Assembly: GCA_016793585.1 (NCBI GenBank)
Contig: JAEUJR010001100.1
Location: 1-12,347 of the forward strand
Direction of reading: 5' to 3'
DNA: 12,347 bases
Origin: Archangium sp.
Lineage (GTDB): Bacteria > Myxococcota > Myxococcia > Myxococcales > Myxococcaceae
Below the pieces are notes generated by a model, which saw only the letters and a list, made by a program, of their open reading frames with translations, was not told the origin of the DNA and made no database searches. Shown piece after piece: positions 1 to 12,347 of this stretch. The position numbers and the translations under genes are program-made. Position 1 is the first letter of the stretch. Each line of letters starts with the position of its first letter.

Positions 1-247
1 TAGGGGGCGCGCGTTGGAAAAAGTCACCTTTTGATGTTGCAAAAGGTGCAATCAGAATTGAGGTGTCCGCAGGCCTGATGAGGCCGACGATCGTTGCTGT
101 GGAGGCCCGAACGCTCTGTCTCTTCGTTGTTTTGACTGAAGTCCAGGACAAGTAGAGGTCCGAGAATTGTCGCGCTTCGAGTTCCTCGACACGGCGTCGG
201 TCGCTGGAGATATTCTTGCCGTAGTAGATACAGAGCGGTAGCGCCAT
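1..247 (-). CDS. Possible partial hypothetical protein, 3' end beyond left edge
   Basis: An open frame of 82 codons runs from an ATG at 247-245 leftward off the window without a stop. It begins MALPLCIYYGKNISSDRRR and includes VEELEARQFSDLYLSW and TIVGLIRPADTSILIAPF. The mix of charged N-terminal residues and later hydrophobic strands looks protein-like, and GC-ending codons are favoured in the first two thirds, but less than in the genes further right. Frame openness extends upstream to a TGA near position 284, so TTG or GTG starts around 256-262 are also possible. No convincing Shine-Dalgarno sequence is seen. I do not recognise the family. Another minus-strand frame (24-368) is also open but less protein-like. 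It may be a chance frame. Confidence 0.35.
   Translation of the reverse strand, partial: MALPLCIYYGKNISSDRRRVEELEARQFSDLYLSWTSVKTTKRQSVRASTATIVGLIRPADTSILIAPFATSKGDFFQRAPP
25..48 (-). terminator. Stem-loop with 9-bp perfect stem followed by a T-run on the minus strand
   Basis: CACCTTTTG (25-33) and CAAAAGGTG (40-48) are perfect inverted repeats around a 6-nt loop. On the minus strand the stem is followed by ACTTTTTCC, which resembles a weak intrinsic terminator for leftward transcription. The stem is AT-rich in its inner half, so it would be weak. If the partial minus-strand ORF across it is real, this hairpin would be inside that gene, which counts against one of the two calls. Confidence 0.3.
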
Positions 248-595
248 AGCGCACACTGCCAAACGGGAATTGAAGTGGAATCCTGCTGATCATGATCCGC
301 TTCAGCTTCTGGTGTATCCGTTGGGCGATCACCGTCGGCTGAGCGCTTGACGAGCGGGGCGTGAGCATGTGTCTGGCTGGTGACGGCTTTCAGGCCACGC
401 TCAAAGTCTGCCTGATGCAAGATCGGTCAGGCCGGAGACGAGTGAGTGAGCGAACCGGACACCAAGTGGCACGTTTGACCGAAGTTCGGACTCGGTGGCG
501 AGAAGCTCGACGGCGGCTGGGGCAGTTTGAAGGCAGAAACCACGATAGAATGAATGAGCATGGTTGCAGGACGCCGCTGAGAGAGACACCCACAA
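248..595. other. Gene-poor, lower-GC stretch containing only a gene fragment
   Basis: No convincing complete gene is seen. The recognisable content is the DUF2236 fragment at 365-419. Short open frames exist on both strands, for example a 64-codon minus frame at 401-595, but none has a recognisable motif or a good ribosome-binding site. Base composition is noticeably less GC-rich than after about 1200. It looks like degenerate or recently acquired DNA. Confidence 0.5.
365..419 (+). pseudogene. Fragment of a DUF2236 (MpaB-like) gene
   Basis: This 55-bp segment aligns without gaps to 1571-1625 inside the intact DUF2236 gene, with 47 of 55 identities by eye and a 27-bp perfect core (382-408 versus 1588-1614). 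It is in the same reading frame: the fragment encodes MCLAGDGFQATLKVCLMQ where the intact gene encodes MRPGGDGFQATLKVRLMH. Homology stops abruptly on both sides. The histidine after the methionine, a candidate haem-ligand position in the family, is replaced by glutamine, and six of the eight differences are C in the intact gene and T here. It is best read as the relic of a duplicated or recombined paralogue. It could instead be the scar of a partial duplication. Confidence 0.6.
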
Positions 596-1084
596 ATGAT
601 CTCGAGACTGCAGGCTTCGTTTCTCTGGACGGAGCCCGAGAGTGCGTCGTTTGCAGAGGCGATCGAGGTGACCCGGCGTTCAGGTCGGAGCAGTCGAGCG
701 CGCCGCGACAATCTGACGCTGGCGAACGAGGAGATTCAGTCCTGGCGAATCGGTATGCAGTCGGTTGAGTTGCTGTTGTCGAGCGGGCGCGTGCTTCGGA
801 TTCACGTTGCTGGCGACGTTGTCGACTGGGAGTTCGATCAGGCGGCCGTTCTTCCAGAGCAACCACGGTTCTACGCTGAGGAGGTTCAGCTCGAACTTCC
901 CGGTGGGCAGCTGATCGTCTGGCGCCCAGATCTGCTGATTGCAGGCCTGCAATCGGCTGGGAGGCTGGGGTTGGCGCCATCAACAACCCTCGTCACGCTG
1001 GAAGGACGCCACCACTTTGACATCAGTTTTGGGCAGATGGTCGACCACCTCGGCCAGCGAATGCTCTGGTTTGAGGAGGAATAG
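596..1084 (+). CDS. Hypothetical protein, 162 aa
   Basis: I do not recognise this gene. The frame opens at ATG 596 just after an in-frame TGA at about 578, with a GA-rich stretch (GAGAGAGA) as a possible weak ribosome-binding site, and stops with TAG at 1082-1084. A second candidate start is ATG 755 (MQSVELLLSSG), where the sequence begins to look like a compact alternating strand/helix domain: SGRVLRIHVAGDVVDWEF, then QLELPGGQLIVWRPDLLIAG, and an acidic end (MLWFEEE). No signal peptide or membrane segment is present. Codons show a moderate GC-ending preference, lower than in the downstream genes, which fits an accessory origin. It ends 32 bases before the DUF2236 gene on the same strand, so the two could be cotranscribed. 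A perfect 18-bp palindrome lies within the coding sequence. Function is unknown; a small accessory or immunity-type protein is speculation only. Confidence 0.55.
   Translation: MISRLQASFLWTEPESASFAEAIEVTRRSGRSSRARRDNLTLANEEIQSWRIGMQSVELLLSSGRVLRIHVAGDVVDWEFDQAAVLPEQPRFYAEEVQLELPGGQLIVWRPDLLIAGLQSAGRLGLAPSTTLVTLEGRHHFDISFGQMVDHLGQRMLWFEEE
937..954. repeat. Perfect 18-bp palindrome
   Basis: GATTGCAGGCCTGCAATC is its own reverse complement (9-bp arms, no spacer). It sits inside the coding sequence of the orphan ORF and encodes part of LLIAGLQSA. It could be a protein-binding site; with no loop it is unlikely to act as an RNA hairpin without opening its centre. Confidence 0.6.
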
Positions 1085-1116
1085 AACACGAGTTCACCTG
1101 CTGCGATGATGAACGC

Positions 1117-2277
1117 ATGACGCCTTCGCGGTACCTCGTCACGCCTCAGGTCCGTGCGCTCCATGGTTCGCGGGTGGACGACTTCGGAGCCGCGTTGCTG
1201 CGCTCCGACGAACTCGCTGACGACGTCGTGCTCGCCTTCCGCGCGCTCCCGCACGGGCAGGGCTGGGCGCAACTGCAACGCGCGCTCACCGGAGACCGCA
1301 GCGCACCGCACCCCGCGATCGCCACCTTCGTCGACTCCGCTTCCACCACGCCGACGTGGGCCGATCGCGAGACGGTCGCCGCCGCCGGAGCGCTCCTGCT
1401 TCGTGCCGGCCCGCTCGGTGGCATCGTGCTCGGCCTCTCGTCGCTCCCCACCGGCTACGCCTCGCCCGCCGGCAACAAGCCGCTCGCCTTCTCAGGCCGC
1501 CTTCAAGAACAAGCGCCGCGCCGCCTCATGGAGACCGCGCGCTTCGTGCACGCCGTCTGCTCCCCCGACGGCATGCGCCCGGGCGGCGACGGCTTTCAGG
1601 CCACGCTCAAAGTCCGCCTCATGCACGCGCAGGTGCGCCGCCTGCTCTGGGACTCGGGCCGCTGGAACGCCGACGCCTGGGGCCTGCCCATCAACCAGCA
1701 CGACCTCGTCGCCACCACGCTCCTCTTCTCCATCGTGCTGCTCAACGGCCTGCGCACCTTCGGCCTCGAGATCTCCACCCGCGAAGCCGAGGCGTACATT
1801 CACCTCTGGCGCTACGTCGGCTGGCTCATGGGCGCAGAGCCCGCGCTGCTGCCCGCGACCGAAGCCGACGCGTTTCGCATCGGCGATCTCATTCAGCTCA
1901 CGCAGGGCGAACCCGACGCCGACTCGCGCGCCCTCACCGACGCGTTGCTGCACTGGCGCCTCAAGGCCGCGAAGACGCCGTGGGAGCGACGCATGGCCGA
2001 GGCCTCGCTCCCGTTCGCCCGCGCCGGTGCGCACCTGTTGCTCGGCAAACGCCTGGCCACGCAGCTTGGCATCGAGCGCTCCATCGCCGAGCTCGGCATG
2101 CCGATGCTGCGACGAACCTTGAGCGGCCTGGAGCGCGTGCGCCTCGTCTCATCTCGCGCCCACGCCTTCGCCATTCAACGCGGTGACGACGCCTGGCGCC
2201 GCGTGGTGGAGGAGGGCCTTCAAGGCGTGCCCGCCGAGTTCCGCCCGCCGTCGTCCCTCAGCGATCGCCGCGCCTGA
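1117..2277 (+). CDS. DUF2236 / MpaB-like oxygenase family protein
   Basis: The 386-aa protein carries the hallmarks of the DUF2236 family, which includes fungal MpaB and the haem-b latex-clearing rubber oxygenase Lcp. Seen in order: FQATLKVRLMHAQVRR with His170 at the position expected for the haem axial ligand, WGLPINQHDLVATTLLF (about residues 188-204), and YIHLWRYVGWLMG (about 227-239). The rest is predicted helical. No signal peptide is evident, so it is probably cytoplasmic or membrane-associated; several hydrophobic helices could contact a membrane. The family oxidises hydrophobic or isoprenoid-like compounds, but the substrate here cannot be read from sequence. The ATG at 1117 has no strong Shine-Dalgarno sequence. 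The gene lies 32 bp after the orphan ORF and its last 20 bp overlap the convergent marR gene. A broken piece of the same family lies about 1.2 kb upstream. Confidence 0.88.
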   Translation: MTPSRYLVTPQVRALHGSRVDDFGAALLRSDELADDVVLAFRALPHGQGWAQLQRALTGDRSAPHPAIATFVDSASTTPTWADRETVAAAGALLLRAGPLGGIVLGLSSLPTGYASPAGNKPLAFSGRLQEQAPRRLMETARFVHAVCSPDGMRPGGDGFQATLKVRLMHAQVRRLLWDSGRWNADAWGLPINQHDLVATTLLFSIVLLNGLRTFGLEISTREAEAYIHLWRYVGWLMGAEPALLPATEADAFRIGDLIQLTQGEPDADSRALTDALLHWRLKAAKTPWERRMAEASLPFARAGAHLLLGKRLATQLGIERSIAELGMPMLRRTLSGLERVRLVSSRAHAFAIQRGDDAWRRVVEEGLQGVPAEFRPPSSLSDRRA

Positions 2278-2755
2278 CGCGACGCCGGGGCGGCGGCATC
2301 GGCTCGTCCTCCAACGCGGGCAACCCTTCGGCGAGCGAGCGCAGTGACGTGAGCAGCGAGCCCAGCTCGCGGGTCTTCACGCCCTTCAGCCACCGGCGAA
2401 TCGCGGCTTCATCGCTCTCGTTTCGTGACGCGAACAGCTTCGCCACCGCAGGCGTCGTCACCAGCCGGCACGCCCGGCCATCATCTTCATCAGGCAGCTC
2501 GCGGATGAGCCCCTTGCCCTCGAGTGCGTCGAGCAGCTGCCGCACGTTCTGGTGACTCGAGCCCAACGCCTCGGCGATCTCCCGCTGCCGTGGAGGCGCC
2601 TCCGCCAGCTCGATGATCGTCAGCACTGCCGCCTGCTGGGTCGTCAGCCCGATGTCCGACAGCCGCCGATCCATCAGCGCCCGCAGCCGCAGGCCGAGCA
2701 CGATCAACAACCGGAACACGTTCACTTCCTCGCTCGGACCCTTGTCTCGCGACAT
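2258..2755 (-). CDS. MarR-family transcriptional regulator
   Basis: The 165-aa product is a winged-helix DNA-binding protein of MarR type and is expected to act as a dimer. Helical dimerisation segment: residues about 10-35 (VNVFRLLIVLGLRLRALMD). Helix-turn-helix: about 58-82 (REIAEALGSSHQNVRQLLDALEGKGL). Acidic wing with DEDDGRACRLVTT at about 89-101, close to the MarR wing motif. The C terminus is proline/arginine-rich (PPPRRRVRRGDR), which could add DNA affinity. The chosen start is ATG 2755 (MSRDKGPSEE). A GTG at 2791 would add 12 residues but would place the promoter-side dyad inside the gene and has no ribosome-binding site; with ATG 2755 an AAGG lies 12 nt upstream, which is long. The gene is divergent from the glycosyltransferase and probably represses it and itself. 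It overlaps the DUF2236 3' end by 20 bp in convergent orientation. Confidence 0.88.
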   Translation of the reverse strand: MSRDKGPSEEVNVFRLLIVLGLRLRALMDRRLSDIGLTTQQAAVLTIIELAEAPPRQREIAEALGSSHQNVRQLLDALEGKGLIRELPDEDDGRACRLVTTPAVAKLFASRNESDEAAIRRWLKGVKTRELGSLLTSLRSLAEGLPALEDEPMPPPRRRVRRGDR

Positions 2756-2772
2756 AGGGTATATGTTACCTT
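2756..2772. promoter_or_regulatory. Putative MarR operator between divergent genes
   Basis: AGGGTA (2756-2761) and TACCTT (2767-2772) form an imperfect dyad (five of six positions complementary) around the 5-bp spacer TATGT, giving AGGGTATATGTTACCTT. It abuts the marR ATG and lies 28 bp before the glycosyltransferase start, in the only intergenic gap between the two. The size and AT-rich centre fit MarR-type operators. No confident -35/-10 pair could be assigned, although TATATG/TATGTT inside the dyad could act as a -10 element. Confidence 0.45.
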
Positions 2773-2791
2773 GTTTCGAATCTCCCGCCAC

Positions 2792-2795
2792 GGAG
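2792..2795 (+). promoter_or_regulatory. Ribosome-binding site deciding the glycosyltransferase start
   Basis: GGAG lies 5 nt before the GTG at 2801. It supports a GTG start there and argues against the frame's extension upstream, which only reads antisense through marR. Confidence 0.6.
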
Positions 2796-2800
2796 CGTTC

Positions 2801-4084
2801 GTGATCGCCTTCCTTCCCAACTGCGGTTTCATCTCAGAGGTCTCGCGCGCCACCGCGATCGCGAAGGCGTTGAAGGACCGTGGAGTGCCGGTCTGCTTCG
2901 CCTCGCGAGGTGGGCCCTACGTCTCGCTCATCGGCGCAGCCGGGTTCGAGTGCACGACGCTGACTCCAACGTTGGGGGCTGAAGGCTCGGCGGACTTCCT
3001 CGCGGCGCTGCTCGACATGGGCAAAGGCGATCGCCCGTTCTTCGCGCCTGGTGAGCTCGAAGCGAGTGTGACTGCCGAAGTCGCGTGGCTGCGAGAGGTG
3101 AAGGCGACCGCGGCAGTGACTGGCTTCACCCTGTCGGCAGCGCTCTCAACCCGCGTCGTTGGCATTCCGCTGGTGACCGACCATGGCGGCTCCTTCCTGC
3201 CTCCGGTCCTCTCGCGTGGGCTGTGTCCCGTACCGGTCAACCCACCCAAGGCCGAGATGTCGCGACTGCCGCAGGTCGTGCAGCGGTGGATGGCGAATCG
3301 AATGCCGGCGCTGCTCAAGGCGCCGGTGAGGCAGCTCAACGCCCACGCAGACACGCTCGGCGTGGAGCGCGTGCCGTCATTGCTGTCGATGATGTGTGGC
3401 GACCTCACGCTCGTGACCGAGCTCGCCGAGGTGTTGGGAACCAGCGCCGAGTCGATCGAACGCTGGAAGCCGAGCTGGCCGTTTCGCGTGCGCCGCGGCA
3501 CCACGTTCGTCTGCACGGGACCGCTCTACGCGAAGCTCGATGCGCCGATTCCGCCCGAGGTCGAGGCGTTTCTCTCGCAGCCGGAACCGGTCGTGTACCT
3601 TGCTCCCACGAGCGTGCAGACCGGGTTTCTGCGTGAGCTCATTCTGTCGGCGAAGCCCGCTGGAGCCCGGCTGCTCGTCGCCTCGACCGTTCACGACGTG
3701 AAGGACCTCGGTGATGACCGAACGCTGATCGCGGGCGTGTTGCCGAACCACCTCGTGTTCCCGCGCATCGCCGCTGCGGTGATCATGGGCGGGCAGGGGA
3801 GCGTGCAGTGCGCGATGGCCTCGGGCACGCCGTTCATCGGGCTTCCGCATCACGGAGAGCAGGAGCTCAACGTCGCTGTCGCCGAGCGGCTGGGCGTCGC
3901 GATTCGCATGGCGCCGCATTCGCTCGACTCGCTTGCCCCGGCGATTCGCCGGCTGCTCGACGAGCCTTCGTTCGCGACGTCAGCGAAGGCCGCCGCTCAG
4001 CGCTACGCCGGTATCGACGGAGCTGCCCGCGCTGCCCAGGCCATCGTCGACCATCTCGAACGGCGCACCCGCGCTGCTGCCTGA
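2801..4084 (+). CDS. GT1 (UGT/MGT-like) glycosyltransferase
   Basis: The 427-aa protein has a GT-B two-domain layout. The N-terminal Rossmann half opens with VIAFLPNCGFISEVSRATA and AKALKDRGVPVCFASRGG, typical of acceptor-binding domains of UDP-glycosyltransferases. The C-terminal half contains the nucleotide-sugar signature in variant form: IMGGQGSVQCAMASGTPFIG (about residues 328-347), then LPHHGEQELN with Glu353-Gln354 and Asn357 where family members usually have D/E-Q..N. The usual His of the HGG signature is Met here. The length matches the family. No signal peptide or transmembrane helix is obvious, so it is cytosolic. Such enzymes move a sugar from a nucleotide donor to small lipophilic acceptors such as macrolides, sterols or pigments; the acceptor cannot be predicted. 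The start is GTG 2801, set by the GGAG upstream. Divergent MarR and the shared 45-bp gap suggest ligand-induced expression. It converges on the reductase-like gene with an 8-bp gap. Confidence 0.85.
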   Translation: MIAFLPNCGFISEVSRATAIAKALKDRGVPVCFASRGGPYVSLIGAAGFECTTLTPTLGAEGSADFLAALLDMGKGDRPFFAPGELEASVTAEVAWLREVKATAAVTGFTLSAALSTRVVGIPLVTDHGGSFLPPVLSRGLCPVPVNPPKAEMSRLPQVVQRWMANRMPALLKAPVRQLNAHADTLGVERVPSLLSMMCGDLTLVTELAEVLGTSAESIERWKPSWPFRVRRGTTFVCTGPLYAKLDAPIPPEVEAFLSQPEPVVYLAPTSVQTGFLRELILSAKPAGARLLVASTVHDVKDLGDDRTLIAGVLPNHLVFPRIAAAVIMGGQGSVQCAMASGTPFIGLPHHGEQELNVAVAERLGVAIRMAPHSLDSLAPAIRRLLDEPSFATSAKAAAQRYAGIDGAARAAQAIVDHLERRTRAAA

Positions 4085-4092
4085 ATTGAACC

Positions 4093-5016
4093 TCAGCTCC
4101 GCTTCGTCGAGTGTCCGGCGCCACGCTGGCTCGAGAGCTCGTCGCTCGTGAGCAAGCGCTGAACGCCAGCGAGCTGAGCGCCCGGTTCGCGAGCCATCGC
4201 CTCGAGCAGAAAGCGTGGCTCTTCAGCGCCGTTGTCAGCCAATGAGGACAACGCACCGAACTTCGCCGCCAGCCACAACGCGAACGTCAGCAACCATGCC
4301 GGCGTCCGCACGAGTCCATCGACCGACACGGGAGTCACCTCGAGCCCGCGCGCGCGCACGAGCCGAACACCCTCACGCCACGCGTGAACGACCGCCTTGG
4401 CGTCGCTCCACGTCAGTCGCGTCTGCGCACGAACACCAGCCGCCATCAAAGGCGCCATCACCGCGGCATGCGTCGACAGCCACGCCTCCATGTCGGAGCA
4501 CTCGACCGTGGGAATTCCGGCCTCCGTGAAGTTCTTCGCCCAGCCATCGAGCCACGCCGGCCTGAAGTCGTTCAGCGCTCCGATGGTGGTGATCTGCACC
4601 CGCTCGAGGGCGCGCGGAACGACCTGCGCCTCCAGCTTGCCGTCCCGCAGCGCGGCCACGATCGCCGGAAAGCCCCACGCGAACCGTTCACGCCCAACCG
4701 CCTCGCGCAATGCTTGTACACCGCGCCATTCATTGAACATGAACATCACCGGAGCGCCGCACGCCTTCAGCATCGGCACCACCGCGTCGACCTGCCACGG
4801 CTTCACCGGTACGATCACCAGGTCACACGCCGGAATCGCATCAGAGACTCGCACGGGAATTCGCTGGCCCGTCACGGTCACGATCGCGCAATCAGCCCGC
4901 AGCGCCTCGAGTCTCGACCCGCGCGCCACCACCGTCACGTCATGCCCGGCGAGCGCCAATCGCATCGCCACCGTGCTCCCGATGGCACCCGCTCCGAGAA
5001 CGACGACGCGCTTCAT
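4093..5016 (-). CDS. Ketopantoate reductase (PanE/ApbA)-like NAD(P) oxidoreductase, atypical
   Basis: The 307-aa protein begins MKRVVVLGAGAIGSTVAMRL, a clear dinucleotide-binding GxGxxG (Gly8-Gly13) as in ApbA/PanE. It continues with GHDVTVVARG (24-33), where Arg32 suits NADP binding, then DLVIVPVKPWQVDAVV (65-80) and MFNEWRGV (93-100), matching the family's VK and NG landmarks with Asn95. The helical C-terminal domain is present, and length is normal. Odd: where PanE has a conserved W-x-K with the catalytic lysine, this protein has W179-L-S-T, so bona fide ketopantoate reductase activity is doubtful. Start ATG 5016 overlaps by one base the TGA of the CHAT gene (TGATG), a strong sign of translational coupling and of a role tied to that operon. 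The stop is 8 bp from the convergent glycosyltransferase end. Confidence 0.82.
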   Translation of the reverse strand: MKRVVVLGAGAIGSTVAMRLALAGHDVTVVARGSRLEALRADCAIVTVTGQRIPVRVSDAIPACDLVIVPVKPWQVDAVVPMLKACGAPVMFMFNEWRGVQALREAVGRERFAWGFPAIVAALRDGKLEAQVVPRALERVQITTIGALNDFRPAWLDGWAKNFTEAGIPTVECSDMEAWLSTHAAVMAPLMAAGVRAQTRLTWSDAKAVVHAWREGVRLVRARGLEVTPVSVDGLVRTPAWLLTFALWLAAKFGALSSLADNGAEEPRFLLEAMAREPGAQLAGVQRLLTSDELSSQRGAGHSTKRS

Positions 5017-8000
5017 CACCCGCCGTATAGGACGAACCCTGCCCAGTAGTACGGCGACTTGTACCGCTCCTGCGAAGCGAGCTCTTTCTGTGCACGGGCC
5101 AGCGCCTTGTCTGGCGGAAGGCCCATTTGCAGAACACCGACGTAGAACGACTTCATCAGCTCCGACGTCGCCTTGTCGTTCACCTTCCACAAGCTCGCCA
5201 CGACTGACCGCGCGCCAGCGTGCAGGAATCCACGCGCCAGGCCGATGAACCCCTCTCCGCGCACCTCTTCGCCCAGCGCCGTCTCACACGCGCTCAGCGT
5301 CACGAGATCGGCCGGCAGCTTCAATCCATACACTTCCGCGAGCGAGAGAAACCCATCGACGCTCTTTCCGTCGGGTGATCGCCGCGAGAGCACGAGCCCC
5401 GATCGCTCGGGGTGTTCGGTATCCAACACGCCGTGCGTCGCGATGTGCACGATGCGCGGCTTCCCCGATGCGTTCAGCTTCTCTTTCGAAGCATCGAAGT
5501 CGAGCAGCACCTTGCGCCTCGGCTCCGGCACGAGGGAGCCCAGCGCCTCACACTCCGCGCGGCTCGAGATCAGGCGCTGGTAGTGCGCTTTCTCGCCAGC
5601 CCGCAATTCCGCCACGCCAGCGTCGACGATCTCCTTGCCGCTGAGCCGCGGGTCATCGGCTTCGAAGACGGGATCACCGACCGCGACCAATTCTCCCGTC
5701 GGAGGCGGGCGCTTCAACGCTCGCTGCGCCTTCAGCACGCTCAGCGACGGCGTCGACTGCACAGGAACCTCGGGAACGAGCGCGGCCCACGGCAGGAGGT
5801 GCAGTGTTCCATCAGCCACGATGACGAGCCGGCGTTTGCCGGCCAGCAGCGGCTCGAAGGGACTGATGAGCCCCTTGCGCAGCGACGCCTTCAGCTCCTC
5901 CGCCTTCGCATCGGCCGCTGCGACTCGTGCCGCACGCGCGGCCGCGTTCTCACCTGCGACATCTTCATTCCGCGCCGAGTACAGCTTGTGGAGCGTCTCG
6001 GCCTGCCCCGCGAGGTCCTTCGCCTCGAGCAAATACGCGCCGGGCGTCTTGCCACCCAGCACCAGCGCATAGTTGCCATTGCGGCCCAGGTAGTACTCGA
6101 CGACGAGCGAATCAGCGCCCACCAGCGAGTCGACCTCGGCCAGCGTCACCAATGGCAATGATTGCAAACTCGCCACGCGTGGGTCCGCCGACTGCAACTT
6201 CCCGTGAATCGCCTCGTACTCGGCCAGCTTCAGCTCGAGCGTCGCTTCCTGCGGAGGCGTTCCCGCATCGGCTCCAGCGGTCGCCTTGAACCGCCGCGCC
6301 GCGTTCTCGAGATCACGAATCTCGGCGCGCAGCTTGTCCTCTTCGGCGACGAGGCCCTGCTGGTCTGCCGGGCGATCGAGATCGACCAGCATCAGGAAGT
6401 CGAGCAGTGATCGCGCGCGCGCGCGCTCACTCGCCTCCACCGCCTTCTCGAGCCACTTCAGGTCCTTCTTTTCCATCGACTGCAGCGCCGCCGCCGCGAC
6501 CCACAGGTCGTAGAACTTGCGAACGCCCGCCGTGTAATACGCGCGGCGATCTTCACTCGCGATGCGCTCCCGCAACGAGTCGGTCATCGCCAGCGACTTC
6601 TCGGCCCACGCCACTGCTTCGGGGTAGTGCTTCGCCATCAGCTCCGCGCGACCCAGGCGGTAATACGTGTAGGCCTCCCAGGTCAGGTCGCCGAGCTGCG
6701 CGAACAGCTTCGCGGCCTGATGGAGCGGCTCCATCGCCTCTGCAGGCCGGTTGAGTCGACCCAGCGCGCTCCCGAGCGAACAGAGCGTCTGTGCTTCACC
6801 GCGCACCGACTTGATCTCCCGCCGCAGAATCAACGCCTCGGCATGGTGCTTCAGCGCGACGTCATCGAGCAGCGTCGACTCCATCTCTCCCGCTGCGTCG
6901 AGGCTGAACGCGAGGCCCTGACGATCTCCCGAGATGCGGCGCACCTCGACCGCCTTCAAATAGAACGGCAGCGCGCCCGCCCAGTCGGAGTGCACGTCTG
7001 ACCTCATGCCGCCGAGATCGTGCAGGGCATGCCCAATCGCCCGCCCGTCCTTCGTGAGCAACGCCGCCGCGTGACCGCGCTCGAAGTGCTGCAGCCCCTT
7101 GTCCTTGTCGCCCAGCGATTTGTAGCCCCAGCCGATCGCGCTCTCGTACGCCGCAATCAATTGCGGGTCGCCTTCACGTCGCACGAGCTCCAGCCGTGGC
7201 ACGAGCTTGCCAACGCTCTGCGCATGTTCGGCGCGCTCGGCGAGACTGTCTGACTCGGCAATGTCGATACGCGCGTGAAGGAGCTCGTCGGTTCCAGCAA
7301 TCGCCCGCGCATCCGCCACGTGCTCGGCCGCGACCTCGAGCCGACCCTGCTCATGATCGATGGCCGCGATGCCGAGGTGTGCCGACGCCACCGTCTCGTA
7401 CACGGGGCTCGCCATCGCCTCGACGAAGCGCTGTGTCGCTTCGGGCTCGCTCACGCGCAGCAGAAACTCCGCGGCCGTCACCAGGTGCTCACCCGCCCGC
7501 TCCCTGTCGCCGAGCGCGTTCGCCTTCGTGGCCCCCTCGATCAACGTCGCTGCCGCCTTGCGCAGCCCTTCGCCCGTCGAAGGAATCGTCGACGCCACCG
7601 CCGCCATGAACGACTCGTCGAGCGCGGCCAATTCCTTCACGTTTGCAGGTGCAGACACCGTCAACGTGAACGCCTTCACGGCACGCAGCGGCTCGGGAGG
7701 CGCGATCTCCAGCTCGAGCCCTTCCGTCGAGGCGAGCGCGATGCGTTCAGGCGCATCACCCGGCCGGCGATCGACCACGGTGCGCGTCTCACCCTTCACG
7801 ATGATCAGCTGGGCGCCGCTGCGGCCACCTTCGAGCACCAGCTCGACCGGCGTCTCCGGCAGGCGAAACCGCTGCGGCGTCGACGTGAGCGCTCCTTCGA
7901 CGCGCTGGCTCGACTGCAGCCTTGCCGTCGACGGAGAACAGGAAACGAGAACGGCGAGAAAGAGAATGGAAGTCGGCTTCACCACGCCAGACCTCAGCAC
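5016..8000 (-). CDS. TPR-CHAT lipoprotein, putative caspase-like protease
   Basis: 994 aa. A lipoprotein signal peptide (KPTSILFLAVLVSC, lipobox LVSC, Cys21) predicts export and membrane anchoring. Residues about 40-120 form a strand-rich domain. Residues about 165-480 are helical and contain degenerate tetratricopeptide repeats, for example around 283-312, 363-392, 402-432 and 443-472. About 545-605 is probable coiled coil. The C-terminal CHAT domain covers about 620-994, with the dyad His856 in IVHIATHGVL and Cys905 in LVTLSACETALGEEVRGEGF, followed by ARSVVASLWKVND. CHAT domains are clan CD caspase/separase-like proteases. The start GTG 8000 has GGAG 7 nt upstream; GTG 7985 or 7982 with GAGG upstream would also keep the signal peptide. 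It begins 4 bp after the anti-sigma-like gene and overlaps the reductase-like gene by 1 base. A periplasmic or surface CHAT protein in a sigma-factor operon suggests a role in envelope signalling. Confidence 0.9.
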   Translation of the reverse strand: MLRSGVVKPTSILFLAVLVSCSPSTARLQSSQRVEGALTSTPQRFRLPETPVELVLEGGRSGAQLIIVKGETRTVVDRRPGDAPERIALASTEGLELEIAPPEPLRAVKAFTLTVSAPANVKELAALDESFMAAVASTIPSTGEGLRKAAATLIEGATKANALGDRERAGEHLVTAAEFLLRVSEPEATQRFVEAMASPVYETVASAHLGIAAIDHEQGRLEVAAEHVADARAIAGTDELLHARIDIAESDSLAERAEHAQSVGKLVPRLELVRREGDPQLIAAYESAIGWGYKSLGDKDKGLQHFERGHAAALLTKDGRAIGHALHDLGGMRSDVHSDWAGALPFYLKAVEVRRISGDRQGLAFSLDAAGEMESTLLDDVALKHHAEALILRREIKSVRGEAQTLCSLGSALGRLNRPAEAMEPLHQAAKLFAQLGDLTWEAYTYYRLGRAELMAKHYPEAVAWAEKSLAMTDSLRERIASEDRRAYYTAGVRKFYDLWVAAAALQSMEKKDLKWLEKAVEASERARARSLLDFLMLVDLDRPADQQGLVAEEDKLRAEIRDLENAARRFKATAGADAGTPPQEATLELKLAEYEAIHGKLQSADPRVASLQSLPLVTLAEVDSLVGADSLVVEYYLGRNGNYALVLGGKTPGAYLLEAKDLAGQAETLHKLYSARNEDVAGENAAARAARVAAADAKAEELKASLRKGLISPFEPLLAGKRRLVIVADGTLHLLPWAALVPEVPVQSTPSLSVLKAQRALKRPPPTGELVAVGDPVFEADDPRLSGKEIVDAGVAELRAGEKAHYQRLISSRAECEALGSLVPEPRRKVLLDFDASKEKLNASGKPRIVHIATHGVLDTEHPERSGLVLSRRSPDGKSVDGFLSLAEVYGLKLPADLVTLSACETALGEEVRGEGFIGLARGFLHAGARSVVASLWKVNDKATSELMKSFYVGVLQMGLPPDKALARAQKELASQERYKSPYYWAGFVLYGG

Positions 8001-8004
8001 AAAC

Positions 8005-8742
8005 TCACTCCGGTTCGATCGTCAGCTCGTATTCGGTGACCGTCGCGCCGTTGCTCTGCAGCACGATGGAGTGCCGCCCGCTCGTGAACACCGACCCGGG
8101 CACCTCGGCCTCTACCGCCACCGCGTCGGCCTTCACGGGAGCGCCGTGCCACACCTCGCCCGACGGCCCCGACACCACCACGTTCCACGCGCCGCGCGCC
8201 GGCTCTCCGTCGAGGCTCAGCTCGAGCTTCACCGTGCGAGTGCTCTTGCCGACCTTCAACGTTCGCGCAGCGGCCTCGGCACGAACCGCGAGCGGGCGCA
8301 GCGACACTTCGGAGTCGGTCATCGGGCGCGGCAACAACACCATCACCGTCGCTCCAGCGACCGCGAGGCCCGTGGCGAACGCGAGCGGCAAGCGGCGAGT
8401 GGTGAACAGCGTGGCGAACCACGACGCCTTCTTCACCGGCTGCGCCAACACCTTCGCCTTGAACGCGCGGGCCGTGTTCAGTCGCGCCCGCAGCTCGGGG
8501 TCGGCCTTCAGCTTCGTGTCGAACCGGTCACGCCGTTCCTTCGACAGCTCGCCCGACAGGTATGCGTCCATCAGCTCGACCTCGTACGCTCGCAGTTCTT
8601 CGAAGCGCTCGTCGCTGTCGAAAGCCTCGTCTTCGAGCTGGCTGGCTCGATCGTCGGGCAGCTCCCCGAGCAGGTACGCAAAGGCGATGTCGACGTCGAT
8701 CGGCCGCATCTCACCAGCGGGTGTCGTCGGGCCCGTTTTCAT
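8005..8742 (-). CDS. Anti-sigma-factor-like single-pass membrane protein
   Basis: 245 aa, from ATG 8742 to TGA 8005. N-terminal region (about 15-90) has two tandem helical units: FAYLLGELPDDRASQLEDEA (21-40) and DAYLSGELSKERRDRF (59-74), each followed by an acidic D-x-E segment. This resembles the Y-x-x-GEL-x-x-x-x motif of sigma-binding anti-sigma domains but with no Cys/His zinc ligands. A hydrophobic helix at about 118-138 (LPLAFATGLAVAGATVMVLLP) preceded by KK and RR is a single transmembrane segment with the N terminus inside. The outer part (about 140-245) is predicted strand-rich (VKLELSLDGEPARGAWNVVV), likely a periplasmic sensor domain. The start overlaps the sigma stop (ATGA), indicating coupling. 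A role as cognate inhibitor of the upstream sigma factor is inferred from position and architecture. Confidence 0.75.
   Translation of the reverse strand: MKTGPTTPAGEMRPIDVDIAFAYLLGELPDDRASQLEDEAFDSDERFEELRAYEVELMDAYLSGELSKERRDRFDTKLKADPELRARLNTARAFKAKVLAQPVKKASWFATLFTTRRLPLAFATGLAVAGATVMVLLPRPMTDSEVSLRPLAVRAEAAARTLKVGKSTRTVKLELSLDGEPARGAWNVVVSGPSGEVWHGAPVKADAVAVEAEVPGSVFTSGRHSIVLQSNGATVTEYELTIEPE
8008..8011 (-). promoter_or_regulatory. Ribosome-binding site for the TPR-CHAT gene
   Basis: GGAG on the minus strand lies just before the anti-sigma stop codon and 7 nt before GTG 8000. It supports the longest start for the TPR-CHAT protein and reinitiation after the upstream gene. Confidence 0.5.
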
Positions 8743-9386
8743 TTCTGGCCACTTTCCAGCTTCGATTGCACACACGTCTCGAGGCGGGCCCGAATGCGAA
8801 ACGCCCGCACGCGCAGCGCCCCCACCGTCGTGCCCAGCGAGTCTGCAAGCCGTTGACGTCCTTCGATTCTCGTCGAGCCCTCGTCGCGGTAGTACGTGAA
8901 GACCAGCTCTCGCTCGGCAGGCAGCAGTCCTTCGAGACACCCGTCGAGCGCCTTCAATCGAACTTCAACGTCGTCGTCGTTCGCGGGCGTGGGCGTCGAG
9001 GCGTGCTCCTCGAGCGGCACCTCTCGGCGGTCACGGCGCGCGGCCTCGAGCGCCACCATGCGAGCGACACCCAGAATGAAGGCGTGCGGCTGGGCGGTTC
9101 GAACCTCGTTGGCCTCCACGCGGCGCGCGACCCGGTCGAACGTCTCGTCAGCGAGCCCCGCGGGATCGACGAGGCCCTTCCAGCGAAAGAACGACTCGAC
9201 CTTCTCGCGAAGCAGTCGATATCGCTCTGCACGGCGCGCTGGCTGATCAGCGCCCACGAAGTCGAGCAGGCGCTCGAACGTCGCCGCGTCTGGCTGAAAC
9301 CGCTCTCTGGCCTGACGGGGAGCCGCCTGCGTCACGAGCGGCACACAATCGCAGTCGATGCAGACAGACAAGCGGTTCTGTCCCAC
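8739..9386 (-). CDS. ECF-like RNA polymerase sigma factor
   Basis: 215 aa if started at GTG 9386. Sigma region 2 spans about 36-118: DETFDRVARRV then AFILGVARMVALEAARRDRR, the usual ECF W/F-L-x-x-x-A-R-x-x-A-L motif in divergent form. After an acidic linker (130-143), region 4 spans about 145-206: LKALDGCLEGLLPAERELVF, YYRDEGSTRIEGRQRLADSL and TTVGALRVRAFRIRARL, the helix-turn-helix that would read the -35 element. The start is uncertain: GTG at 9344 or 9335 would remove an odd N-terminal cluster SVCIDCDC, and no start has a strong ribosome-binding site. It is first in the operon and overlaps the anti-sigma-like gene by 4 bases (ATGA). It probably directs transcription of its own operon and targets elsewhere. 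Confidence 0.82.
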   Translation of the reverse strand: MGQNRLSVCIDCDCVPLVTQAAPRQARERFQPDAATFERLLDFVGADQPARRAERYRLLREKVESFFRWKGLVDPAGLADETFDRVARRVEANEVRTAQPHAFILGVARMVALEAARRDRREVPLEEHASTPTPANDDDVEVRLKALDGCLEGLLPAERELVFTYYRDEGSTRIEGRQRLADSLGTTVGALRVRAFRIRARLETCVQSKLESGQK

Positions 9387-9441
9387 TTTCGTTTCACACG
9401 GGTCGACAGCGGCGGGTCATTGCCCACGTTGCAGGCAGGTG

Positions 9442-9455
9442 TGGCACGGGTGCCA
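9442..9455. promoter_or_regulatory. Perfect dyad upstream of the sigma gene (1)
   Basis: TGGCACGGGTGCCA has perfect 6-bp arms around a 2-bp centre. It lies about 56-69 bp before the presumed sigma start on the minus strand, a location suited to a regulator-binding site in the operon promoter. Confidence 0.4.
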
Positions 9456-9466
9456 TGATTGTCACA

Positions 9467-9490
9467 GAGCGTCGGACTGGAACGACGCTC
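9467..9490. promoter_or_regulatory. Perfect dyad upstream of the sigma gene (2)
   Basis: GAGCGTCG (9467-9474) and CGACGCTC (9483-9490) are perfect 8-bp inverted repeats with an 8-bp spacer. The geometry fits a dimeric regulator site or a GC-rich RNA hairpin. No T-run follows on either strand, so it is not a standard intrinsic terminator. Confidence 0.45.
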
Positions 9491-9577
9491 CAACCATTTG
9501 AATCGACGAGACCAGGCTGACGGGCATGTCCCTTGCTGACTGGCTGCGTCATGCCGACTGAGGCCGGTCGGTGCGTG

Positions 9578-9583
9578 AAGGAG
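9578..9583 (+). promoter_or_regulatory. Strong ribosome-binding site before a small ORF
   Basis: AAGGAG is separated by 6 nt from ATG 9590. This is among the best Shine-Dalgarno matches in the window and is the main argument for the short ORF that follows. Confidence 0.4.
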
Positions 9584-9589
9584 CAGGTG

Positions 9590-9739
9590 ATGGAAACCAC
9601 GACGTTCATGAAGCCCAGGTTCGTGATCTCGGCGCTGCCGGGAACCGGCGTCATGCAGGTCCAGGTGAAGGCCAGCGCCGAGAAGCCGTCGCCGCGAACC
9701 GTCGTGCTGCAGACTGCCGCCGTGTCGTCGCTGAGCTGA
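9590..9739 (+). CDS. Possible small protein, 49 aa
   Basis: The frame reads METTTFMKPRFVISALPGTG and ends AVSSLS. It has an AAGGAG 6 nt upstream and about nine tenths of its codons end in G or C. No signal peptide, membrane helix or known motif is evident. It ends 58 bp before glmU on the same strand and could be cotranscribed as a leader ORF. A competing minus-strand frame over the same bases also has strongly GC-ending codons, so the call is tentative. I do not recognise it. Confidence 0.35.
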   Translation: METTTFMKPRFVISALPGTGVMQVQVKASAEKPSPRTVVLQTAAVSSLS

Positions 9740-9769
9740 GTGTCGCTTCCCTCGCTCCCGTTGACCCCT

Positions 9770-9794
9770 GGCCCTGCTGTCTGACAGACGGGCC
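9770..9794 (+). promoter_or_regulatory. Interrupted inverted repeat next to the glmU start
   Basis: GGCCC-TG-CTGTC-T-GACAG-AC-GGGCC is symmetric around 9782, with one 2x2 mismatch between the outer 5-bp and inner 5-bp arms. It ends 3 bases before the glmU ATG and covers the place where a ribosome-binding site would be; no clear Shine-Dalgarno sequence is seen there. It may be an operator or a translation-masking hairpin. Confidence 0.4.
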
Positions 9795-9797
9795 CAC

Positions 9798-11207
9798 ATG
9801 AACCCACCGCTCGCAGCCGTCGTGCTCTGTGCTGGCAAAGGCACGCGCATGAAGTCTGAGCTGGCCAAGGTGCTGCACCCGATGCTCGGGCGCCCGTTGG
9901 CCTGGTACCCCATCACCCGCGCGTTCGAGACCGGCTGCCAGCAGGTGGTCTCGGTCATCGGTCACCAGGGTGAGCAGGTGAAGGCGTCTCTGGCGAAGGC
10001 GTTCGAAGGCCAGGCGCTCTCGTTCGCCGTGCAGGAGCAGCAGCGCGGCACGGGTCACGCCGTCGCCTGCGCGCGCCAGTCGCTCACAGGCTTCACGGGC
10101 GCGGTGCTCATTCTCTATGGCGACGTTCCGCTGCTCACCGCCGAGACGCTGACGAAGCTGGTCGCGGCCTACCGCGCCGGCAAAGGGCCGCTCGCGATGG
10201 TCACCTGCCGGCCGCCGAACCCCACCGGCTACGGCCGCATCGTGCGGGGCGCGGGCAACAAGGTCGAAGGCATCGTCGAGCACAAAGACGCCACCGAGGC
10301 GCAGCGGCAGATCGGCGAGATCAACGCAGGCATCTACGTGGCCGACGCGCGATTCCTCTGGGGCGCGCTCGAGACGCTCACGCCCGCCAACGCGCAGGGC
10401 GAGCTGTACCTCACCGACATCGTCGCGAAGGCGGCGCAGCAGGGAGAGATTGCGGTCGTCGAAGCCGATGCGCGTGAAGTCGAAGGCGTGAACGACCTCG
10501 CCGAGCTGGCCGAGCGTGCGGAGCTGCTGCGCGCGCGCATCAACCGTCGCCACCTGCTGGCAGGGGTGACGCTGCAGCACCCGGCCTCGACCTTCATCGA
10601 CGAAGGCGTCGAGATCGGCCCCGACACCGTCATCGGCCCCAACGTCACCATCTCGGGCGACTGTGAGATCGGCTCGCGCGTCACCATCGGCCAGGGCTCG
10701 GTGCTGAACCACTCGACGGTCGGAGACGGCACCACCGTGAAGCCGTACTCGGTGCTCGAAGACGCGGTCGTCGGTCCCCTCTGTCACGTCGGCCCGTTCG
10801 CGCGGCTGCGACCCGAGACGGTGCTCGATGAAGGCGTGCACGTCGGCAACTTCGTCGAGACCAAGAAGACCCGCCTCAAGAAGGGCAGCAAGGCCAACCA
10901 CCTCGCGTACCTCGGTGACGCGGAGATCGGCTCGGGCTGCAACATCGGCGCGGGCACCATCACCTGCAACTACGACGGCGTGAACAAGCACAAGACGGTG
11001 CTGGGCGATGGGGTCTTCGTGGGCTCCGACACGCAGCTGGTCGCGCCCGTGAAGGTCGGAGACGGCGCGTTCATCGCGGCCGGCAGCACCATCACCGAGC
11101 ACGTACCCGCCAACGCGCTGGGCATGTCTCGCGTGCCGCAGACGAACAAAGAGGGCTGGGCCGAACGGCGCCGCAAGGTGCTGGCGGGCATGAAGTCGAA
11201 GGAATGA
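9798..11207 (+). CDS. glmU: Bifunctional GlmU: GlcN-1-P acetyltransferase / GlcNAc-1-P uridylyltransferase
   Basis: 469 aa, close to the usual 450-470. GlmU makes UDP-GlcNAc, the precursor of peptidoglycan and lipopolysaccharide, in the cytosol as a trimer. The N-terminal pyrophosphorylase domain (about 1-235) has the nucleotide loop [20 protein letters not shown] (10-29; Cys and Ala replace the commoner Ala and Pro), QQRGTGHA (81-88), the metal-binding Asp109 in YGDVPLL, GYGRI and INAGIY. The C-terminal part (about 255-469) is a left-handed beta helix with hexapeptides such as [15 protein letters not shown], and the acetyltransferase residues [15 protein letters not shown] with His368 and CNYDG with Tyr392. 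No frameshift is seen. The ATG lies directly after an interrupted inverted repeat and lacks a clear ribosome-binding site. It is followed 66 bp later by glmS, the same order as in many proteobacteria. Confidence 0.97.
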
Positions 11208-11262
11208 ACCGGGAATTCCCCCGCGGGCACGAGGTTCGAGCCGCGGGAACCCAGCAGTCGTC

Positions 11263-11267
11263 AGGAG
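11263..11267 (+). promoter_or_regulatory. Ribosome-binding site of glmS
   Basis: AGGAG lies 6 nt before ATG 11274. The 66-bp gap between glmU and glmS is too short for a glmS ribozyme, and none is seen. Confidence 0.7.
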
Positions 11268-11273
11268 TCGTCC

Positions 11274-12347
11274 ATGTGCGGAATCGTTGGCTACGTCGGT
11301 GACAAGCAGGCGGCAGGCGTGCTCGTGGGCGGTCTCAAGCGCCTCGAGTATCGCGGCTATGACTCCGCTGGCGTGGCTGTGCTCGATGGCAGTCAGCTCA
11401 CCGTGCTGCGCGCGACCGGCAAGCTGAAGCACCTCGAGGGCAAGGTGTCGACCGAGCAGCCGAAGGGCACCGTCGGCATCGGCCACACCCGCTGGGCCAC
11501 GCACGGCCGCCCTTCGGACGACAACGCGCACCCACACACCTTCGAAGGCGTCAGCGTGGTGCACAACGGCATCATCGAGAACCACCTCGCGCTCAAGGCC
11601 GAGCTCAAGGGCAGAGGCCACGTGTTCTCGAGCGAGACCGACTCCGAGGTCTTCGCGCACCTGATCAGCGACGCGCTGAAGGCCGGCAAGGCCCTGCCCG
11701 ACGCGGTGCGCGCCTCGACGAAGCAGGTCAAAGGCACCTACGCGCTGGTGGTGGTGACCGGAGCGGATCCCACGCGCATCGTCGCGACCCGCGAAGCGCA
11801 GCCGATGGTGCTCGGCCTGTCGGAAGGGCAGAACTTCGTCGCCTCCGACGTGCCCGCGCTGCTCGATCACACGCGCGACGTCATCTTCATGGAGGACGGC
11901 GATCTGGCCGTCATCGAGAAGAGCGGCATCACGTTGACCGATCGCTCCGCCGCGCCCGTGAAGCGCAAGGTGACGCGCATCGACTGGACGCCGGGCATGG
12001 CCGAGAAGGGCGGCCACAAGCACTTCATGCACAAGGAGATCATCGAGCAGCCTCGAGCGATCGCCGACACCCTGCGTGGGCGTGTGCTGCGCAGCGAAGG
12101 TGACGTGCACTTCGACGGCTGGAACCTCTCCGAGGCCCAGGTGAAGTCGATGGAGCGCGTGTGGATTCTCGCCTGCGGCACCTCGTTCCACTCCGGCCTC
12201 GCGGGCAAGTGGATGATCGAGTCGCTCGCGCGCATTCCCGTCGAGGTCGAGCTCGCCAGCGAGTTCCGCTACCGCGACCCCATCGTGCAGAAGGGCCAGC
12301 TCGCCGTCGCCATCAGCCAGTCGGGTGAGACGCTCGACACGCTCGCG
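11274..12347 (+). CDS. glmS: GlmS, glutamine--fructose-6-phosphate aminotransferase, 3' truncated by window
   Basis: 358 codons are present without a stop; the usual length is about 610, so the rest lies beyond the right edge. GlmS converts fructose-6-phosphate and glutamine to glucosamine-6-phosphate, the committed hexosamine step. Met1 is followed by Cys2-Gly-Ile-Val-Gly, so processing exposes the N-terminal nucleophile cysteine of the class II glutaminase domain (about 2-220). Landmarks: RLEYRGYDSAGVA, IGHTRWATHGRPS, NAHPH, VVHNGIIEN and SETDSEV. The linker KHFMHKEIIEQPRAIADTLRGR leads into the first SIS isomerase domain, with ILACGTSFHSG and AISQSGETLDT as sugar-phosphate-binding loops. 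Base use and strand match glmU upstream, and the two form a likely operon supplying UDP-GlcNAc. Confidence 0.97.
   Translation, partial: MCGIVGYVGDKQAAGVLVGGLKRLEYRGYDSAGVAVLDGSQLTVLRATGKLKHLEGKVSTEQPKGTVGIGHTRWATHGRPSDDNAHPHTFEGVSVVHNGIIENHLALKAELKGRGHVFSSETDSEVFAHLISDALKAGKALPDAVRASTKQVKGTYALVVVTGADPTRIVATREAQPMVLGLSEGQNFVASDVPALLDHTRDVIFMEDGDLAVIEKSGITLTDRSAAPVKRKVTRIDWTPGMAEKGGHKHFMHKEIIEQPRAIADTLRGRVLRSEGDVHFDGWNLSEAQVKSMERVWILACGTSFHSGLAGKWMIESLARIPVEVELASEFRYRDPIVQKGQLAVAISQSGETLDTLA

Follow-up and report, generated by a model that had tools for sequence, protein, structure and literature searches.

DdvA is the anti-sigma factor of the extracytoplasmic function (ECF) sigma factor DdvS; PddvS depends on DdvS, and the inactivator of DdvA was not known as of 2015 (PMC4374960, in part). 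In type III-E CRISPR systems the tetratricopeptide repeat (TPR)-CHAT protease Csx29 cleaves Csx30, a protein which is linked to the inhibition of an RpoE-like sigma factor (PMC10028731, in part), and CHAT proteins are also described in the genetic context of ECF54 sigma factors, which are said to act without an anti-sigma factor (PMC8999054, section 3.3). The locus considered here is located on a stretch of 12,347 nucleotides from Archangium sp. (contig JAEUJR010001100.1, positions 1 to 12,347), referred to as the window, which encodes an ECF-type sigma factor, a single-pass anti-sigma factor and a separate TPR-CHAT lipoprotein on its minus strand. With a probability of about 0.48, this operon is an envelope signalling system in which the CHAT protein acts as the site-1 protease of the anti-sigma factor. 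An earlier note on this DNA had suggested such a system with reference to Csx29, Csx30 and their sigma factor, which it described correctly, while the closest precedent, DdvA, which combines an anti-sigma factor and a TPR-CHAT part in one protein, was not named.

Organisation and conservation of the operon

The minus-strand genes follow each other in the order sigma factor (P0001, 215 aa, 8739..9386), anti-sigma factor (P0002, 245 aa, 8005..8742), TPR-CHAT lipoprotein (P0003, 994 aa, 5016..8000) and an ApbA/PanE-like reductase (PF02558, 4093..5016), with the spacing that the earlier note had read: the sigma and anti-sigma genes overlap by 4 bases (ATGA), 4 bases (8001-8004) separate the anti-sigma from the TPR-CHAT gene, and the latter overlaps the ApbA-like gene by a single base. 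The range assigned to the operon at that time, 5016..9386, omits the ApbA-like gene which was counted as its fourth member. The setting is CRISPR-free as had been suggested, with no Cas family among ten scanned proteins (Pfam) and no CRISPR-like array of direct repeats in the 12-kb window.

Among 145 genomes from the order, ten have a match to the CHAT protein at E < 1e-40, six with more than 750 bits and the other four with less than 300, and the anti-sigma factor (E < 0.001) has matches only in the six genomes with a close CHAT protein. The CHAT protein of the window shares 97% identity with its counterpart in L001, a metagenome-assembled genome of the Archangiaceae, which places the window among the myxobacteria. 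G001, G002 and G003 have a single CHAT gene each. The sigma, anti-sigma and CHAT genes are contiguous in five of the six genomes, and in G002 the module is divided between the ends of two contigs. The reductase-like gene adjoins CHAT in three of the six and was not matched within approximately 10 kb downstream in G002 and G003, nor within 1.5 kb in G134. Of the four-gene order that was expected to be conserved, the sigma, anti-sigma and CHAT part therefore stands, and the reductase, found beside CHAT in half of the genomes, is rejected as a member and treated as a neighbour outside the conserved module. The three remaining genes are in all probability a joint module and not a chance cluster.

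The TPR-CHAT lipoprotein and its presumed active site

The CHAT assignment is certain (PF12770, E 7e-67, 226 bits against a cut-off of 24). The protein has an export signal with a lipobox-like LVSC behind a hydrophobic stretch (aa 18-21, 7938..7949), in keeping with its earlier description as a lipoprotein, followed by a TPR superhelix (approximately aa 121-540, 6381..7640) and the CHAT domain with its separase-like fold (aa 707-993, 5022..5882), both delimited by Pfam and a predicted model. This model matches DdvA, Csx29 and separase; the Csx29 family model scores 30.2 bits on the protein, under its cut-off of 300.

The presumed catalytic pair of His856 (codon 5433..5435) and Cys905 (codon 5286..5288), noticed at first reading, is intact according to the alignment. 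Both residues, and likewise Asp942, are kept in 60 of 60 CHAT proteins examined, comprising 11 of group I, 31 of group II, 11 DdvA-like, three from other groups and four database fusions; for three of the 60 (L002, L096 and L147) no sigma factor was seen alongside.

The sigma factor and the anti-sigma factor

The sigma factor is divergent: its Pfam region 4 match is below the cut-off and its best NCBIfam match, TIGR02989, reaches 45 bits against a cut-off of 125. The sigma family profile (A3) matches the solved ECF sigma factors RpoE (2q1z_A, 1.3e-7) and SigK (4nqw_A, 2.8e-7) over most of the length, and it is via this profile that the relation to ECF sigma factors over regions 2 and 4 is seen, the single window protein being under the Pfam cut-offs. 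The assigned start, GTG at 9386, may be wrong because the N-terminal extension is largely missing from the relative in L078; a start at a GTG near 9334 would agree with this.

The anti-sigma factor consists of a helical anti-sigma part (approximately aa 17-100), a predicted transmembrane segment (approximately aa 117-137, 8332..8394; called by hydrophobicity, with a low pLDDT in the model) and an Ig-like beta-sandwich outer domain (aa 142-245, 8008..8319; AlphaFold2 model). Its zf-HC2 match is barely over the Pfam cut-off (23.2 vs 22.2 bits) and the usual His/Cys letters of that family are absent. With the family profile (A2), a match to the anti-sigma chain 3hug_B was obtained (E 1.4e-5); this chain, which we take to be RslA, is recorded as a conserved membrane protein in complex with a sigma factor. 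The protein thus combines an anti-sigma domain, recognised through A2 and 3hug_B, with a single hydrophobic segment, as is expected of a membrane anti-sigma factor. Just outside the membrane lies the stalk motif SLRPLAVRA (aa 147-155, 8278..8304), in which S147, L148, R149, P150 and R154 are invariant (A4, 16 sequences) and which has the consensus SLRP..(V/L)RA in the window clade. Matched by eye, the distant group I anti-sigma factors have TRG(G/S/A) at a comparable position of the stalk, and those of group II keep Arg164 without exception, with G or A as the next residue (A7, nine sequences). The motif may mark the edge of a strand, a point of contact or a site of cleavage.

Linkage of CHAT and sigma genes in Myxococcota

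A search of 195 Myxococcota genomes with the CHAT alignment (A1) found 46 places in 42 genomes at E < 1e-60, with four candidates scored per genome and the top places lying near rows of A1 by construction. An ECF sigma factor is located within 3 kb of CHAT at 38 of the 46 places, the surroundings of all of which were checked, and the sigma factor of G011 is also supported by Pfam (63 bits). The eight places without one are G002, G126:C264, G011:C644, G011:C361, G154, G155, G098:C122 and G061, of which G002 lies at a contig end, the next three run off their contigs and G061 has a contig end 1.1 kb upstream. Genes in high-GC loci were called by codon-position GC scoring, which failed on L093. 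The 38 sigma-linked places show at least four arrangements: sigma, anti-sigma and CHAT in the window clade, where G126 has a small transmembrane open reading frame in between; a sigma/anti-sigma pair divergent from CHAT in G127; CHAT, sigma and anti-sigma in G013 and G011; and, in 29 loci, a same-strand sigma gene approximately 1.0-1.4 kb upstream of CHAT. Since the 38 loci are mutually related, the independent evidence is this handful of arrangements and not 38 events.

The last arrangement, termed the Myxococcaceae type, occurs in Corallococcus, Myxococcus, Pyxidicoccus and Stigmatella. Three of the 29 loci (L094, L097 and L103) were read gene by gene and encode a sigma factor, a transmembrane protein, a small exported protein and CHAT, which has a C-terminal hydrophobic segment in four of four Myxococcaceae-type proteins checked. 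A start codon which gives a 4-base overlap of the transmembrane protein gene with the sigma end is present in 16 of 16 parsed loci. The two transmembrane proteins that were scanned have no Pfam match; proteins of this kind, some of them named anti-sigma factor in UniRef, are called anti-sigma factors by their position, their transmembrane segment and a profile match to A2 that is short at 58 columns (E 1.1e-6, probability 91%). The sigma factors of both groups are related by profile comparison (2e-5).

The small exported protein, which has no Pfam match in L103 (the one scanned of the three), could be a substrate of CHAT. This would suit an explanation in which CHAT is the output of the system, such that the sigma factor activates its own operon and CHAT cuts another envelope protein in repair, development or killing. 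Autoregulation is common among ECF operons and counts for this explanation, as do the small protein encoded after the anti-sigma gene and ahead of CHAT in the three loci, and the position of the CHAT gene downstream of sigma and anti-sigma in the window. The requirement of DdvS for PddvS agrees with it as well (PMC4374960, in part). However, the fusion of anti-sigma and TPR-CHAT in a single protein points to a role on the input side, and an output function is considered unlikely.

The anti-sigma profile A2 has matches at 1e-5 in 123 of the 195 genomes, of which almost every one is to the short anti-sigma part. The top ten places, which are the only ones among the matches listed to cover the outer domain as well, all adjoin CHAT (in G002 across a split contig); G011:C801 is the one independent find, the other nine being rows of A2 or close relatives of such rows. 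In the CHAT-domain tree, two sigma-linked groups are seen beside a well-supported and mostly sigma-less expansion. The tree has 70 rows, with group II thinned to 15 of 31, one CHAT from each of 30 control loci and the long-branch P0058, P0064 and P0041 left out; the count of 4 changes treats five control loci as unlinked although they have a sigma-like neighbour. As it is unrooted and has long branches, it does not decide between one and several origins.

Sigma genes are abundant, with 19 to 85 region-4 matches per genome (in some genomes at least that value), which raises the question whether their position beside CHAT reflects chance or a loose neighbourhood with no joint function. As controls, 30 other CHAT loci were chosen by highest Pfam score; they hold 35 CHAT genes, nine of which also have a sigma-like match within 3 kb, including probably spurious long open reading frames in L085 and L088 that the retrained sigma profile matches. 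This is well above the approximately 2-6% expected for a random gene by arithmetic from the region-4 counts. Four of the control matches were scanned; the proteins are 319 to 371 aa long and carry sigma region 4, which exceeds the Pfam cut-off in three of them. In L162 and L168 a large divergent protein whose start resembles zf-HC2 lies next to such a protein, and in neither locus, when read, does a sigma/anti-sigma pair precede CHAT. Chance is nonetheless very improbable as an explanation of the sigma-linked loci, given that the linkage is found in several different orders, that the 4-base overlap recurs throughout the parsed Myxococcaceae-type loci and that fusions of anti-sigma and CHAT exist. 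As a separate observation, region-4 proteins of approximately 320-370 aa are located upstream of other TPR-CHAT genes in L162, L168, L169, L178 and L179 (four of the five scanned).

Fusions of anti-sigma factor and CHAT

Both zf-HC2 and CHAT occur in a single chain in four database proteins (P0060, P0083, P0093 and P0114), and three of these also contain a TPR family. For Myxococcota, 11 fusions were taken from 14 listed A2 matches with open frames of at least 980 aa. All 11 directly follow an ECF sigma gene and end in a CHAT-like part, and both zf-HC2 and CHAT are over the Pfam cut-off in the four that were scanned. One is homologous over its full length to DdvA of structures 8rot and 8rw5, the depositors of which name DdvA a CHAT domain-containing protein; the solved DdvA of Myxococcus xanthus is a zf-HC2/transmembrane/TPR/CHAT fusion. 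A further CHAT-like gene is divergent from DdvS/DdvA-like pairs in L190 (5681-7501), L180, L182 and L185, and the L190 protein, the only one scanned, is composed of CHAT and nSTAND1.

The fusions bear on the question whether CHAT cuts at all. A TPR-CHAT part that is covalently joined to the anti-sigma factor, as in DdvA, might be a sensor or scaffold which binds the anti-sigma outer domain and alters its hold on the sigma factor without cleavage, the fold being used as a receptor. In the DdvA-like proteins, CHAT has indeed drifted in sequence, with no Trp at 938 and a gap at 915 in 11 of 11. On the other hand, the invariance of His and Cys in the 60 proteins extends to these DdvA-like members, and retention of the pair although Trp938 is lost argues for an enzymatic use. 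A non-cleaving receptor appears a doubtful alternative.

Proposed mechanism of sigma factor release

The TPR-CHAT lipoprotein and the outer domain of the anti-sigma factor presumably share the compartment outside the inner membrane, as judged from their sequences and predicted models. It is proposed that the anti-sigma factor would hold the ECF sigma factor at the inner membrane until the CHAT protein perceives a signal through its TPR part or its N-terminal beta domain. The signal would switch on the separase-like His-Cys site, whereupon CHAT would act as site-1 protease and cut the outer stalk of the anti-sigma factor. As with RseA and RsiW, general proteases of the site-2 and cytoplasmic kinds would then free the sigma factor. 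Other lineages would have these functions fused, as in the DdvA type, or differently arranged. The earlier envelope signalling interpretation is supported in part, by the conserved linkage, the export signal, the His-Cys pair and the Csx29-like fold, and not as regards the reductase as a component; binding of the sigma factor by the anti-sigma factor and cleavage by CHAT are its putative elements.

Several points weigh against cleavage of the anti-sigma factor by CHAT. The lipoprotein could be located in the outer membrane or on the surface and thus at a distance from the stalk, and the tie of CHAT to the anti-sigma factor in DdvA also fits a purely sensory role. Some CHAT proteins of the same groups have no nearby sigma factor (L073 in G126, L096 in G098, L091 and L092). 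The catalytic pair is not special to sigma-linked proteins, Cys905 being invariant and His856 present in at least 90% of CHAT proteins generally (A5, 59 sequences). In separase, an Asp reads the P1 Arg of the substrate, with K670 as its counterpart in Csx29 (PMC9729208, in part), and this position, mapped from the alignment, falls on Ser946 of the window protein. Separase-like Arg-specific cutting is thus unsupported and the cut site is not predictable; the conserved stalk Arg, which may be structural, is offered as a place to look and not as a predicted cut site.

Loci outside Myxococcota

Four of 13 non-Myxococcota loci (L004-L016) have a sigma-like gene within 3 kb of CHAT. In the Bacteroidetes locus L013, a sigma factor over the Pfam cut-offs, a transmembrane protein and CHAT are encoded in overlapping order. 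The unplaced L004 has a sigma factor and CHAT with a divergent, zf-HC2-looking transmembrane protein, and L016 from Prevotella has CHAT, a sigma factor and a further protein without a called transmembrane segment; the sigma factors of these two loci are under the Pfam cut-offs. In L008 the sigma-like gene is on the opposite strand to CHAT. The partners in L004, L013 and L016 are possible anti-sigma factors by position and appearance, and it is likely that the separate-gene version exists outside Myxococcota. A bolder generalisation, that exported TPR-CHAT proteins of several phyla form a hitherto overlooked class of site-1 proteases acting on ECF anti-sigma factors, with Csx29-Csx30-CASP-sigma of type III-E CRISPR as a captured cytoplasmic offshoot of such a CRISPR-free switch, is speculative and rather improbable.

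Neighbourhood of the operon

Upstream of the sigma gene, a non-coding block (9411..9468) is similar in the window, L078, L079 and L080 and contains the inverted repeat TGGCA-N4-TGCCA. This block may serve as a promoter or a site of regulation. Between the sigma operon and a GlmU-like gene lies a small conserved open reading frame of 49 aa (METTTF...AVSSLS, 9590-9739, plus strand) with close relatives in L001, L078, L079 and L080. The GlmU-like (9798-11207, plus strand) and GlmS-like (11274-12347, plus strand) genes, for UDP-GlcNAc supply, are divergent from the sigma operon; both recur in L001, L078 and L080, and the GlmU-like gene also in L079. Elsewhere in the window, a 55-base direct repeat (365-419 and 1571-1625) is 85% identical.

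Comparison with known systems

No description of a separate-gene sigma/anti-sigma/CHAT operon was found in the open-access literature searched, and a text search of PMC7159879 for CHAT and sigma gave no occurrence. The general kind of system is already known from DdvA and Craspase; apparently new, as far as the open-access literature extends, is the separate-gene lipoprotein version with an Ig-like anti-sigma factor, its several arrangements and its likely spread beyond Myxococcota. ECF54 resembles the window in having CHAT beside an ECF sigma factor but is described as lacking an anti-sigma factor (PMC8999054, in part), which the window encodes. Like RseA with DegS, and like RsiW, the window has a membrane anti-sigma factor with an outer part and a presumed proteolytic release, in which the site-1 protease would be the CHAT lipoprotein in place of DegS or the RsiW protease. 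The type III-E Craspase (Csx29, Csx30 and CASP-sigma) has Cas7-11 and a CRISPR array alongside, neither of which is in the 12-kb window. Its Csx29 is in complex with Cas7-11 and RNA and hence probably cytoplasmic, whereas in the window the CHAT protein carries an export signal and the inhibitor is held in the membrane.

The closest likeness is to DdvS/DdvA (8rot, 8rw5 and 8rlz), which shares with the window an ECF sigma factor, a transmembrane anti-sigma factor and a TPR-CHAT fold beyond the membrane, the His and Cys also being kept in the DdvA sequence by alignment. DdvA, however, is a single polypeptide, whereas in the window the TPR-CHAT fold belongs to a lipoprotein separate from the short Ig-like anti-sigma factor. 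The window thereby ties together the fused DdvA, the CRISPR-guided Craspase and the stand-alone CHAT proteins beside ECF sigma factors. If CHAT does cut the anti-sigma factor, a caspase/separase-type enzyme would be a general bacterial envelope-stress switch and the odd sigma output of Craspase would gain a likely source. With the protease-like part on a gene of its own, the split form makes the question of what inactivates DdvA addressable by single-residue changes in soil bacteria.
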